A DNA stretch of 40,098 bases. It comes from an uncultured Patescibacteria group bacterium. Lineage in GTDB: Bacteria; Patescibacteriota; Microgenomatia; UBA10105; UBA927. The notes beneath the pieces were generated by a model. The model was not told where the DNA came from. It saw only the letters and a program-made list of their open reading frames with translations, and ran no database searches. Made by a program: the position numbers and the translations under genes. The first letter of the stretch is position 1. Every line of letters starts with the position of its first letter. The stretch spans positions 1 to 40,098 of the forward strand of contig CAKZSU010000009.1 in NCBI GenBank assembly GCA_937921305.1, given 5' to 3'. This document shows, piece after piece, positions 1,984 through 40,098 of this stretch.

Positions 1984-2457
1984 CTATTAAATTTACTTAA
2001 ATTAATTTTAAAAATATATATTAAATTTTAAAAATATTAAAAGATAATTTCATGCATGCTTTTTTATGCTACAATATTACATTAGTATAGTATATATTTT
2101 GTTTAGATTTCGTTTGTTCCTTTCAACTACCTTTCTCATGATTTCTTACATGTATGTCTCTCCTTAAGAGATATAATCATTTTTCTTCTACAAAAATTAA
2201 TTTAAATTAAAAAAATATCAGACTCTCATATAGAGTGTTAGCAATAATTTTGGAAGTTTCAATATTCAACCTATCCATCTTTTATATTTTGAATTTTTAT
2301 TGTTTTTTTTATTTTTCTCCTGTTCTACTCTTATTTCCATTTTGATTATTTATTTCTTAAATACTCTTCATCAACAAGATAACATTCTGCTCTATTTATT
2401 AGTCGAATATAGATTTGAGTATCTTATGATAGTGTAAAGATTCATTGCGTAAGGCGT

Positions 2458-2512
2458 CAATACTTAATGTATTGCTATCAACGTTTCGTTGATGAAGATT
2501 TTTTCTTTTTTT
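2458..2512 (+). terminator. Double hairpin with T-run (orphan terminator or small RNA 3' end)
   Basis: Two adjacent hairpins, CAATAC/GTATTG (2458-2474) and ATCAACG/CGTTGAT with a TTT loop (2477-2493), are followed by T-rich sequence 2498-2512. This has the form of a rho-independent terminator on the plus strand. No gene lies upstream on that strand, so it may end a small RNA; a TATGAT at 2425-2430 could be its -10 box but lacks a good -35. Confidence 0.45.
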
Positions 2513-3093
2513 ATCTCCTTGCTATTCTTCTGTTTGACATTTATTTGGCATTCTTTCTGTTCTCTATCTTTTTGAGATACGTAGTAAAAATATATAGCTA
2601 AACAATTTTTAAAGCATTTTATTTTAACAAAACGCTGTGTGCGTTAATTGCGAAATGAAAAAATGAAATGTGAAAACATTTTATATATTTTTATCTATTT
2701 ATCGGTAATACAGAAGATATAATTCACGTATTAACGAATTTATAAATTATTTTAAAAAATAATTCTTTTTATAAAATAATAAAATAAAAATTTTATTATT
2801 TTTTATATATATTTTTATATTTTTTCGTTAAAAAATGGTTACATGGTTATTTTTATTTTTAGTTTTTCATGAATTTTTAAAGTAAATTTTATTGCGTTAA
2901 AAATGCACTTGTACATTTTTTAATTGATTTAAATAAAAAGCAGACTATAGTAACTTATAAAATATTTTAATAAAATTCTATGTGTGTGCTCTTTGATTTA
3001 GAATAAAAATTCTATTTTATATCTTATAAAAGATTAAAATATTTATTTATAGGATTCTTTAATTTTCTATTTTATTTCAAATATGAAATTATA

Positions 3094-3099
3094 TATAAT
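3094..3099 (+). promoter_or_regulatory. -10 box of leuS
   Basis: TATAAT 29 bases before the leuS ATG. Transcription would start near 3106, giving a leader of about 23 bases with no Shine-Dalgarno match. A ten-codon frame starting at 3103 (ATG GTA AGT) ends in a TGA that overlaps the leuS ATG as ATGA. It lies mostly upstream of the predicted start point and is probably chance. Confidence 0.4.
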
Positions 3100-3128
3100 A
3101 CAATGGTAAGTAAGCATTGTGTTACGAT

Positions 3129-5714: not shown

Positions 5715-5802
5715 TCGATTTTTCCATTATTAGAGTTTTGTGTTTGTTTGTGACAAGGAATTTCATTTTCTTTTCATCTTTCCTTGATAAGAAAGAAGAA
5801 AG

Positions 5803-6456
5803 ATGATCGCTTCTCGAGTTATTGCAGTGGTAAGTATTAGTAGTATAGTGTTTGCTCTTATTTTGTTCTATTTGCATGGAACGAGTCATGAACCGATTGA
5901 ATTTTCTGCGGAAGGAGAGAGTGTTGCGTCTTTCTCTGCGGATCAGAGACAGACAATCGTTGTGGATATTGCTGGAGGCGTGAGGCATCCCGGCGTATAT
6001 CGACTTCCTGTTGGATCTCGCGTGTCAGACGCGATTGATGCGGCAGGTGGTATTTCGGAAGAAGCGGATATAGTGATCCTTGAACAATTGATCAATAGAG
6101 CGCAAAAGATTCCCGATGGGGCAAAATTATATATCCCAAAGAAAGTTGATGGTCAAGATAGACAATTACTTACGAGTAACCGTCAAGAGACATCGCACAA
6201 TATTTTATTTCTTCAAGAGAAGCATGGAGACACATTAAGAACGTCGCACAATATAGAAATGCGAGAAAGCGGAAAGCGTCTTGTTAGTATTAATCTTGCA
6301 TCTGCTTCTGAATTAGAGATGCTTTCTGGTATTGGACCAGCAACAGCAAAGAAAATTATTGATGGTCGACCATATACAAGACTTGAAGATCTTGTTTCAA
6401 AAAAGATTATAGGAAAGAAAACATTTGAGAAAATTCGTTCATATATTTCGCTGTGA
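5803..6456 (+). CDS. comEA: ComEA-like DNA-uptake protein (SLBB plus helix-hairpin-helix)
   Basis: 217 residues. An N-terminal membrane anchor (residues ~5-24) is followed by a SLBB-type beta-grasp domain (VDIAGGVRHPGVYRLP, SRVSDAI, DGAKLYIP) and, after a variable linker, a C-terminal helix-hairpin-helix unit (INLASASELEMLSGIGPATA then KIIDGRPY). This is the standard order of ComEA, the double-stranded DNA receptor of natural transformation on the outer face of the membrane. A purine-rich AAGAAAG stretch before the ATG may serve as ribosome binding site. The ComEC channel pieces follow directly, supporting a DNA-uptake locus. Confidence 0.93.
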   Translation: MIASRVIAVVSISSIVFALILFYLHGTSHEPIEFSAEGESVASFSADQRQTIVVDIAGGVRHPGVYRLPVGSRVSDAIDAAGGISEEADIVILEQLINRAQKIPDGAKLYIPKKVDGQDRQLLTSNRQETSHNILFLQEKHGDTLRTSHNIEMRESGKRLVSINLASASELEMLSGIGPATAKKIIDGRPYTRLEDLVSKKIIGKKTFEKIRSYISL

Positions 6457-36565: not shown

Positions 36566-37372
36566 ATGCGATATGTTGAATTGGCGTATGTAGCGATTTT
36601 TTCATTTTTTTCTCTTCTTGTTGGTCCTATTTTCGCGCAAGAATTTCCTTCTGGCCTTCCTGTGGCAAGGACATTTAATAATCTTCCCGATTCTGCTCTC
36701 GAAGGAGACATTGTTTCATTAACTGACCGTCCTTATGAATTAGATCTGTCGAGAACAATTGGTGATTCTCGTATATATGGCGTTTTGCACAAATATCCTA
36801 TTGTTGTATATCGAACTGCAGATAAAATGCCTGTTGTTTCCTCAGGAGATGTCATGGTGAATATAACAACAATTGGCGGACTAATCAATCGAGGCGATAT
36901 TATTGTGGCAAGCGAAATTCCTGGAAAGGGACAGAAAGCACCGATTAGAGGAAAAGGATATATGGTTGGATATGCGTTGGAATCATTTGGGGAGCAAGAC
37001 GGAGAAGCGTTTGTTTACAAAGGGAAAAAGCTTCGCAGAGGGAAAATACGAGTGCTATTGGCGATTCGCCCCATTGATCCATTGCATCAAGGATCCCTGC
37101 TTCATCGGGTTCAATCTACCTCGTTGGATTTCTTAAATGGCAATGGAGATCGGTGGATTCGCTATCTTATTGCGCTGCTTATTGTTTCGTCAACGATTTA
37201 TTTTTCCTATCGCACATTTCAGGAAAATGTTGCGAAAGGGATTGAAGGCATAGGAAGGAATCCGTTGGAAAAAATGAGCATTCAGGCCATGGTGACGATG
37301 AATATGATTCTTATTGGCATATTGTGCATTGGCGGAATTGCGTTAGGTGTTCTTATTATTGTTTTCGTGTGA
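36566..37372 (+). CDS. Exported protein with tail-fibre-type beta domain and c-subunit-like membrane hairpin
   Basis: 268 residues. Signal peptide residues ~1-25 (ending GPIFAQ). Residues ~40-170 match a beta domain seen in phage-tail-like and Patescibacteria surface proteins: EGDIVSLTDRPYELD, YGVLHKYPIVV, PVVSSGDVMVNITT, INRGDIIVASEIPG, GYALESFG, KIRVLLAIRP. Two membrane helices follow (WIRYLIALLIVSSTIYFSY and the C-terminal MILIGILCIGGIALGVLIIV) joined by a polar loop with GIGRNP, as in ATP synthase subunit c; the ion-binding acidic residue of helix 2 is absent. The exported domain would face outward. Function unknown. It is divergent from the GalT-like gene. Confidence 0.72.
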   Translation: MRYVELAYVAIFSFFSLLVGPIFAQEFPSGLPVARTFNNLPDSALEGDIVSLTDRPYELDLSRTIGDSRIYGVLHKYPIVVYRTADKMPVVSSGDVMVNITTIGGLINRGDIIVASEIPGKGQKAPIRGKGYMVGYALESFGEQDGEAFVYKGKKLRRGKIRVLLAIRPIDPLHQGSLLHRVQSTSLDFLNGNGDRWIRYLIALLIVSSTIYFSYRTFQENVAKGIEGIGRNPLEKMSIQAMVTMNMILIGILCIGGIALGVLIIVFV

Positions 37373-37375
37373 CAA

Positions 37376-37428
37376 GTATCCACAAACGAGCAAAAATTAT
37401 CCACAAAATTTAAAAAAAGTTATCCACA
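37376..37428 (+). promoter_or_regulatory. Three phased DnaA boxes
   Basis: GTATCCACA (37376-37384), TTATCCACA (37397-37405) and TTATCCACA (37420-37428), all in the same orientation, starting 21 and 23 bases apart, close to two helical turns. The last two are exact matches to the DnaA consensus. They begin four bases after the preceding stop codon and end 16 bases before the deacetylase -10 box. No dnaA gene is in the window. Confidence 0.72.
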
Positions 37429-37440
37429 AAAATTCATATA

Positions 37441-37449
37441 TGTTATAAT
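37441..37449 (+). promoter_or_regulatory. Extended -10 of the deacetylase gene, 6 bases before the ATG
   Basis: TGT followed by TATAAT (37444-37449) and six bases to the ATG at 37456. The DnaA boxes occupy the -35 region, so DnaA binding could control this promoter. Confidence 0.62.
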
Positions 37450-37455
37450 AAACAC

Positions 37456-38244
37456 ATGGAACAGAGTGAAAAACATCATCATGCTACTGGGTATAATTTA
37501 TCGCGACGAAAATTTTTGCAACGCATGACTTTTTTTGCCATAGGAATGGTTTTACCACCGCGAAAAATCTATCCCTTTCCTCAAAGGGAAGAAAACGGAA
37601 GAGAGCAACAAGGTATTAATTGGCCTGAAGATCTTCGAGGCAACGAAGATTTTCTTAGAGGAAATATTTTTATTACGATTGACGATTGTCAATTTACCCC
37701 GCATTTGCGATCGATGTTTGAGACGCTTAAAGAAAATCATGCTACTGCTACATTTTTTCCAAATACTGTTTATCAACGAACCGATGAAGTATATATGTTA
37801 TGGAAAGATATTTATGCTGCTGGCAACGATATTGGGTATCACACGACGAATCATGACTTTGGAAGCGGAAGTTCAACATCAAATTGGTCTATTGAGCAAC
37901 TCAAAGAAGATTTCGATAGATTTACGCAGACGATGCGAGAGATATTAAAGAATCCTTCTTATACGCCAAGATTTGTGCGACCGCCATTTGGGGCTTGGAA
38001 TCAGAAGTGGATGACATTTGTTAGAGAGCGGGGGTTGACGAATGTGCGATGGAATTTCGTTCCTAATGCAAAAAATAATAGTTTAAAATATTTTGATGTA
38101 GTCATGAAGCATCCGCAAGGAGGAAGAATTATTTTGCTTCATACGCGACAATGGGATGTAGAGTGGTTGCAACGTAATATTGTAGGCCTTCAAACATTAG
38201 CAACGCAATATAATGGAAAATTGATTTCATTTCGTAATCTCTAA
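37456..38244 (+). CDS. Polysaccharide deacetylase (NodB/CE4) with Tat-type signal
   Basis: 262 residues. The N-terminus has a twin-arginine motif (NLSRRKFLQR) and a hydrophobic segment (MTFFAIGMVLP), implying export in folded, metal-loaded form. NodB motifs follow: ITIDDCQF (catalytic/metal Asp), GYHTTNHDF (His-x3-His metal site), RPPFGAWN and ILLHTRQ. It would remove acetyl or N-acetyl groups from envelope glycan or peptidoglycan. Length is normal for a single CE4 domain. It is preceded by three DnaA boxes and a leaderless-type promoter. No downstream gene is close; a weak AGATAAAA/TTTTATCT hairpin lies 50 bases past the stop. Confidence 0.9.
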   Translation: MEQSEKHHHATGYNLSRRKFLQRMTFFAIGMVLPPRKIYPFPQREENGREQQGINWPEDLRGNEDFLRGNIFITIDDCQFTPHLRSMFETLKENHATATFFPNTVYQRTDEVYMLWKDIYAAGNDIGYHTTNHDFGSGSSTSNWSIEQLKEDFDRFTQTMREILKNPSYTPRFVRPPFGAWNQKWMTFVRERGLTNVRWNFVPNAKNNSLKYFDVVMKHPQGGRIILLHTRQWDVEWLQRNIVGLQTLATQYNGKLISFRNL

Positions 38245-38638
38245 TAAATGTTTGGCTTTATTAAGATGCTCTTTGTGTTTGCTGATCTAAAAAGATAAAA
38301 GATATTTAGTTTTTTTATCTCTTGCCTATAAGTAAATAATTCTTTTTATTTTGTTCGTTATCGTTATTCTCATTGCTATACTTCCTTGTATTTATATATA
38401 AAAATACTATAAGTATTATAAATACATACGATAAATGAAAATAAATTTTATAAGATAAGTTAATTTTTATAAAAATGATGTATTTTTATTTTCTCAATGT
38501 GTCTCATGAATAACATCGTATATTAATATATTATATAAATTTTGATATTGTTTATTTTATTCATAAATCAACATAGTTTAATCTTTATAAGATATATATA
38601 AATATTTATACTATTTCTGTGCTTCTTCAAAAAAAATA

Positions 38639-38654
38639 CTCTCTTTAAAGAGAG
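38639..38654 (-). terminator. Perfect 16-base palindrome with T-run on the minus strand
   Basis: CTCTCTTTAAAGAGAG; on the minus strand it is followed by TATTTTTTTT. Could end minus-strand transcripts, though no minus-strand gene lies upstream. Confidence 0.4.
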
Positions 38655-38981
38655 ACTAAATTACTCATTAAAACTAAATGTTTCATATTAAATAGATAAT
38701 TTTCCTATAAGTCTTTTAAAATAGACAAGTGGCACTGTTTAAAGAAATTTATATATCAATTATTTTTCCATTTTAAATGGTAATCTATTCTTTTTATAGA
38801 GTTACTATCTTTTTCGTATAAACAAGAGAGGAATTATCAATTAGATCGAATTTTTGCTGGCAGAAAAGAATATAATATTGCTTACTTCCCAGACTGATTT
38901 TGAATAATTCTTTTAATTATTCTTCTCAAAAACATCTTTTTATTTTTTGGATTACATCGCTTAAAAAATACCATGAATTTC

Positions 38982-39009
38982 TTGACAAATTAATAAATTC
39001 ATCTATGAT
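38982..39009 (+). promoter_or_regulatory. Promoter TTGACA-16-TATGAT in the long spacer
   Basis: TTGACA 38982-38987, 16-base spacer, TATGAT 39004-39009. The predicted start near 39016 is 240-370 bases before the possible starts of the collagen-like gene, so it either makes a long leader or a separate small RNA. A hairpin AGCTC/GAGCT followed by TTATT lies near 39076-39090. Confidence 0.5.
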
Positions 39010-39255
39010 GAAATAGATTAAGCTTGTATTTATTATTTTATAATTTTTCAATTTTCGTATGTAAAAACTGAAAATAGCTCAATAAGAGCTTTATTACACT
39101 AATATATCGTTATTCCTTATTTATTATCATATGTCCTGCCCAATAACTAATAAATTTATAAATTTACTTTATTCCAATTATTCTCAAAACATTCTTTTCA
39201 CTAATATAAAGCCGCGATTGAAAAATAGTGTATTATTTCATCCTTCTTGAAATGT

Positions 39256-40098
39256 ATGATAAATCGTTTTTTTGATTGCGCAAAGCAACGCATTACATAT
39301 CAAAATCGCTCTGCCTCTATTGATTATTTCAATACTGCTTCTTTTTTTCAAAAACGAATAAAAAACAAAGTTTCGTTCTTTTATATGGTTAGATTTTTTC
39401 CAATCTTTCTTCTTCTTCTTCTTCTTCTTATTCTTGGAGTTTCTCATGCATATTCATTGCGAGAAGAGAGCTTTATATATCAGTCAGCAAGCAATCCTGT
39501 TGAACATATAAAAGCATCGTTTACTCAAGTAGAACGAGAGAGATTGGAATTTAATGTAGATGTGGCAATGGCAAAGGGGCTTCAAATTGAAAGATCGCTT
39601 GATGTGCAACAAAATGCATCTGTGGCTGGTGTATTGAGCTCTTATGAAGGTAATATCCGTATCGGATTAAAGGTAGGGGAAGAATCGCAGTTTGTGGTTG
39701 ACAAGTCAGGAAGGATTGCTAATGCGTCGGGGATTACATCAGGTGGATTCATCTTTTTCACTGAACTTCCACAGGGATCTGGATCTGTATTGTGTCTTGC
39801 ATCAAATAATCAAGTGGTTCGTTGTTCGTCGCTTTCAAGTTCTCTTTTGCCACCTACGCCAACGCCATTACCGGAAAATCTCTTGAATATATTGCTTAAC
39901 CCTCTTCCAACGCCAACGCCAATTACTTTATATTTTGCTCCGACAGGACCTAGCGGAGGTACAGGAGTATATGGTCCAACGGGGGCAACCGGCTCAACCG
40001 GCGCAACCGGGGCAACGGGTGAAGCTGGCCCAACCGGCGCAACGGGAGCTACCGGAAGTCAGGGACCCACGGGAGCCACAGGAGGAACAGGGAGTCAA
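39256..40098 (+). CDS. Second collagen-like surface protein (C-terminus beyond right edge)
   Basis: 281 codons, open at the right edge. Two starts are possible: ATG 39256, giving a 43-residue basic N-terminal extension, or ATG 39385, giving an ordinary signal peptide (MVRFFPIF, poly-Leu, ILGVSHAYS). Residues ~68-205 are a beta-rich region ([25 protein letters not shown]-like segments). A Pro-rich linker ([19 protein letters not shown]) precedes Gly-X-Y triplets ([13 protein letters not shown]) from about residue 235. The triplet family and codon choice match the left-edge protein. Likely a secreted or anchored fibre. Confidence 0.85.
39409..39429 (+). repeat. (CTT)7 microsatellite in the signal peptide
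   Basis: Seven perfect CTT units encoding the poly-Leu core of the signal peptide. Slippage by whole units keeps the frame and changes the length of the hydrophobic core. Confidence 0.85.
39946..40098 (+). repeat. Collagen triplet repeat at the right edge
   Basis: GC-rich Gly-X-Y coding repeat running into the window end. 40039-40079 is identical to the reverse complement of 410-450. Confidence 0.88.

Follow-up and report, generated by a model that had tools for sequence, protein, structure and literature searches.

What are three co-oriented DnaA boxes doing on a contig other than the one that carries dnaA? The window, i.e. the whole stretch of DNA that was analysed (40,098 nucleotides), is the entire contig C9 of a 97%-complete genome that comprises 10 contigs and 969,865 bp. 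An initial annotation had described two exact boxes and one near-match that all point the same way, at start-to-start distances of 21 and 23 bp, in a short gap away from dnaA, and had offered two readings, the chromosomal origin of replication or a DnaA-controlled promoter of a wall-modifying deacetylase. The described arrangement was confirmed at 37376-37428, and the locus reads as follows.

36566 to 37372, forward strand: 268-aa upstream neighbour with N-terminal and C-terminal hydrophobic stretches and homologues in part of the class
37376 to 37384, forward strand: DnaA box 1, GTATCCACA, one mismatch relative to TTATCCACA
37397 to 37405, forward strand: DnaA box 2, TTATCCACA, exact, 21 bp after box 1 (start to start)
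37420 to 37428, forward strand: DnaA box 3, TTATCCACA, exact, 23 bp after box 2, over the -35 position of the putative promoter
37441 to 37449, forward strand: TGTTATAAT, extended -10 of a probable leaderless promoter, ending six bases upstream of the ATG
37456 to 38244, forward strand: polysaccharide deacetylase (NodB/PF01522 domain), 262 aa, probable target gene

The array spans 53 bp, with gaps of 12 and 14 bp between the boxes, and sits inside an 83-bp gap that extends from the stop codon at 37370-37372 to the ATG at 37456. Single boxes are not in excess: the window contains 13 near-boxes (at most one mismatch) against 12.1 expected from shuffles, and the genome contains 13 exact boxes against about 14 expected, which is chance level. 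The signal of the array is its clustering, not the frequency of single boxes. A third-order Markov model of the same genome, with boxes taken as independent, predicts 7e-5 same-strand triples per genome in which two exact boxes and a third with no more than one mismatch fit within 60 bp. A genome-wide search with the pattern ATCCACAN3-25ATCCACA retrieved two places, the array and the dnaA-dnaN gap, while the reversed control retrieved none; counted as close pairs, two are at the array and three in or beside the dnaA-dnaN gap. The count of clusters elsewhere that the initial annotation had proposed thus yields one other place, with a higher density of boxes. Six exact boxes fall outside both clusters, two in intergenic DNA and four within long ORFs, and the latter look incidental.

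The initial annotation had also placed the array beside AT-rich DNA. Such DNA is indeed nearby, but the strongly AT-rich block (38245-39390, 22% GC) begins about 0.8 kb from the array, beyond the deacetylase gene, and a similar block is found at the other end of the contig (about 2000-3110). Both ends of C9 (168-482; 39960-40098) break within collagen-like repeat genes of the GPTGATG type. Next to each of these genes is a noncoding stretch of about 1 kb with about 21-22% GC (2000-3110; 38245-39390), and it is probably the repeats that stopped the assembly.

Whether the array is the origin can be answered from the location of dnaA and dnaN, neither of which was found near the array. Both genes are on C7, a separate contig, where they are adjacent.

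C7, 108039 to 109142: dnaN, adjoining dnaA
C7, 109271 to 110662: dnaA, adjoining dnaN

The gap between the two genes, together with the end of dnaA, holds six boxes in about 75 bp (CTATCCACA, AAATCCACA, GTATCCACA, TTATCCACA, ATATCCACA and TTATTCACA), including boxes that are 12 bp apart from start to start and hence separated by 3 bp. Past this cluster come TTTTCCACAC and then, right before the dnaN start, the trio-like tract TACTACTAACTACTA. GC skew, computed on stretches of C7 and on C9, changes sign on C7 at about 108 kb, from negative on the left to positive on the right. This switch is at dnaA, so that the skew minimum that had been proposed as a check at the array is located there instead. 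On C9, the skew stays above zero all the way from the left end up to the array, except in one slightly negative 2-kb bin, and no switch was found at the array. No trio-like tract was seen near the array by reading the sequence, and the judgement rests on this reading; a regular-expression test was so stringent that it did not detect even the evident tract at oriC. With three boxes in 53 bp, co-oriented and helically spaced, and with AT-rich DNA in the wider neighbourhood, the array does resemble an origin, but the dnaA-dnaN gap is denser. An origin at 37.4 kb is rejected because the skew is positive on its left, where an origin needs negative skew. The skew switch, the denser six-box cluster and the trio-like tract are all at dnaA-dnaN on C7, and a skew switch elsewhere together with a denser cluster is what the initial annotation itself had named as refuting its proposal. 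Its first reading was thus ruled out, and we leave it practically no probability. The array is probably a rare second DnaA site away from the replication origin.

Two observations were made in passing at the dnaA locus. A head-to-head DnaA box pair, TGTGGATAAGTTATCCACA, is present just upstream of dnaA (L017 5691-5710), and a similar inverted pair precedes dnaA in another genome (G273, L123); such pairs suggest autoregulation of dnaA. The gene for ribosomal protein bL25 beside dnaA (L017 5734-6376, reverse strand) is distributed over two overlapping ORFs in different frames, one for the N-terminal part (6086-6376) and one for the C-terminal part (5734-6111), so the gene is either split or frameshifted, or the sequence contains an error.

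Comparison with relatives shows what the array has in common with origins. Of 374 genomes of the class, 55 contain box pairs that match TATCCACAN11-15TATCCACA, at 61 places in total (one match for the reversed control). Outside this genome, 50 of the 59 places with pairs spaced 19-23 bp are at dnaA, nearly all of them directly after or before the gene, as was confirmed by sequence reading for G017. In the nine family relatives that have a pair, the spacing is always 21 bp, the pair lies either at the 3' end of dnaA or immediately behind its stop codon, and the boxes are oriented in the direction of dnaA. Triples (TATCCACAN10-18TATCCACAN10-18TATCCACA) are present in three of the 374 genomes of the class and in three of 380 genomes of the phylum, with this genome counted in both. 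The other triples (G068, G273, G485 and G603) are all at dnaA, and the array is the sole triple off dnaA among 722 genomes. As most pairs and all other triples of the relatives are at dnaA, the array is built from the box word and the spacing of the origins of the group. Within the 374 genomes of the class, co-oriented pairs at such spacing mark DnaA-binding origins.

The remaining nine pairs are within coding sequence (G233 and G284, at the same site of one epimerase-like gene, and G324), in or beside small ORFs (G370 and G310), or intergenic (G034, upstream of a purD-like gene, G025, and G192 and G360, next to the same gene). The pair of G034 (L043 1500-1529), with boxes 21 bp apart in a gap away from dnaA, makes the upstream region of the purD-like gene another candidate for a DnaA-regulated promoter; purH is also bound by E. 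coli DnaA (PMC11317965). The intergenic pair that two members of family f28 (G360 and G192) have in common, with boxes 20 bp apart (L147 about 2008-2035; L148 about 1990-2017), is away from dnaA in the stretch that was read, and is either an off-origin site or the origin of f28.

What, then, might DnaA do at the array? If transcription starts at 37456, the -35 region is covered by box 3 (positions -36 to -28), box 2 and box 1 are about two and four helical turns further upstream, and 15 bp separate the end of box 3 from the TATAAT hexamer. A sigma-70 scan found no -35 partner for TGTTATAAT and omits the promoter because no -35 hexamer matches. Of 64 long ORFs of the window and of the C7 stretches L015-L018 and L020, 18 have a TATAAT-like hexamer 4-8 nt ahead of the start, compared with 3 of 65 control positions, and five of the 64 have Shine-Dalgarno-like motifs. 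Leaderless transcription therefore seems to be common here, and TGTTATAAT is a probable leaderless promoter of the deacetylase gene. The second reading of the initial annotation, a DnaA-controlled deacetylase promoter, is consistent with this anatomy, with box 3 over the -35 region and the -10 element six bases before the ATG, but no orthologue of the gene was found in the sampled family.

The genome has the protein that such a promoter calls for, with boxes clustered in the promoter region on the one side and a DnaA with a conserved DNA-binding domain on the other. DnaA is complete (TIGR00362, 448 bits), and its closest named relatives, from Candidatus Microgenomates, Beckwithbacteria and Daviesbacteria, are 41-42% identical, so that the genome probably belongs to a divergent lineage of Patescibacteria close to Microgenomates. 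DnaA contacts DNA through its ARPRQ and GGRDHTTV segments. Domain IV retains both of these segments of E. coli DnaA domain IV (PDB 1J1V; alignment), and the protein should therefore read TTATCCACA. Occupancy of the array by DnaA in vivo is likely.

The product of the putative target gene matches PF01522 (3e-17), with its TIDD, HTTNH and RPPFG motifs in place. The nearest relatives of solved structure, 7Y51 (a predicted xylanase/chitin deacetylase) and proteins of the PdaA/PgdA type, are all distant. A wall-modifying role, as claimed by the initial annotation, is plausible from the fold family and the PdaA/PgdA-like relatives. No orthologue was found in the other sampled members of the family or in genome_contigs, and the gene may have been acquired; weak homologues in the class have no box clusters. 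The N-terminus carries a twin-arginine-like motif, SRRKFLQ, before a hydrophobic stretch (37498-37520). Export by the Tat pathway was considered, but no TatC (PF00902) was found in the genome, so that the Tat-like signal may be an orphan, the protein a Sec substrate, or the gene a recent acquisition. The 268-aa protein upstream has no Pfam or NCBIfam match, and its homologues (G015, G048 and others) have no box clusters nearby.

Together, these data suggest a model in which the array is an off-origin DnaA operator of the deacetylase promoter, a reading to which we give about even chances. We infer it from the anatomy, namely that the boxes are spaced as they are and unique in the genome, that they adjoin a promoter-like element, and that DnaA is complete. 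DnaA at box 3 would cover the -35 region of the deacetylase promoter, and cooperative binding at boxes 2 and 1, which face roughly the same side of the helix, would stabilise it there. Abundant free (ATP-)DnaA would then lower the expression of the deacetylase, and expression would recover after initiation, as DnaA is inactivated or withdrawn. Repression is favoured over activation because box 3 is at the -35 region; by general rules of promoter architecture, a protein in this position would more likely block than help RNA polymerase. Three steps of the model are what we infer, namely that DnaA binds in vivo, that the promoter is used and that the effect is repressive. Counted against the operator are, above all, the absence of a deacetylase orthologue from the sampled family, with weak class homologues that lack box clusters, and further the lack of a -35 match, gaps unlike those of E. 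coli pairs, and the possible tandem duplication of box 2. The more specific proposal, that DnaA directly controls the leaderless promoter of an envelope deacetylase via the only off-origin array and so ties surface modification to the replication cycle, is made tentatively, with somewhat less than even chances.

Instead of serving a promoter, the array might titrate DnaA or switch its nucleotide state, by analogy with datA or DARS loci, and the neighbouring gene would then be incidental. No other box cluster of the genome lies off the origin, the boxes of the array copy the local origin style, and evidence from E. coli supports titration by boxes outside the origin (PMC12371093). However, there are just three boxes, they are placed exactly within one promoter region, and the array is not conserved in any relative. 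Moreover, the array (C9) and oriC (C7) are on separate contigs of the assembly. We regard such a role as unlikely. The array could also be a coincidence, i.e. a chance box that was copied by tandem duplication in A-rich intergenic DNA and has no function. The 23-bp units that hold boxes 2 and 3 are alike in 19 of 23 bases (83%), so that box 3 could stem from box 2 in this way, and the chance-level number of exact single boxes, the missing family orthologue of the deacetylase and the homologues of both genes without clusters are what one would expect from it. Duplication does not explain a third co-oriented box with a different flank, however, and the low expectation for triples (if boxes are independent), the spacing of 21 bp between boxes 1 and 2 that is also the spacing of the family origins, and the lack of a second triple away from dnaA in 722 genomes all make coincidence an improbable explanation.

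A relic or moved origin module, such as a duplicated dnaA region or an integrated replicon, would account for a box word, an orientation and a 21-bp spacing that are the same as in the family origins, and might fit with a deacetylase gene that lacks a family orthologue and may be acquired. On the other hand, dnaA, dnaN and a trio-like tract are all absent near the array, and the genes around it (mreB, maf, two tRNA genes and lepA) are of an ordinary chromosomal kind, which makes this origin of the array very unlikely.

DnaA boxes at promoters outside oriC are an already known kind of site. DnaA acts as activator and repressor at such promoters in E. coli, B. subtilis and Caulobacter, and nrdA, dnaA, mioC and uvrB are among the genes concerned (PMC8203912, PMC11317965). 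The array is like these promoters in that clustered boxes are located upstream of a gene, with one at the -35 region. It is unlike them in that the target is a putative envelope polysaccharide deacetylase, that the promoter is probably leaderless, and that it is known from sequence alone. Outside oriC, most targets of E. coli DnaA consist of two boxes separated by 2-3 bp (PMC11317965), whereas the boxes of the array are two turns apart; because of its gaps of 12 and 14 bp, the array is not a double DnaA box of the E. coli type. With oriC in the dnaA-dnaN gap of the family and class, it shares the box word, the co-orientation and the spacing of 21-23 bp, but not dnaA or dnaN, the skew switch or the trio-like unwinding tract, and it has fewer boxes than the genome's own origin. 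Like datA, DARS1/2 and the DnaA-box clusters of B. subtilis, it is a box cluster away from oriC; unlike these, it has few boxes, and conservation and partner-protein sites are known only for them. In E. coli, off-origin boxes titrate DnaA (PMC12371093), and titration is the main functional alternative to the operator.

Little seems to have been written on DnaA sites in Patescibacteria, and our literature search found no paper that joins Patescibacteria, DnaA box and oriC. The origin anatomy described here, with co-oriented boxes two turns apart after dnaA and a trio-like tract before dnaN, helps to place oriC in draft genomes of the class. In a genome with exactly two box clusters, one at the origin and one at a promoter, the clustered part of the DnaA regulon may consist of a single target. 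The lineage is thought to live attached to other cells, and if the operator reading is true, replication would be tied in it to the chemistry of the cell surface.
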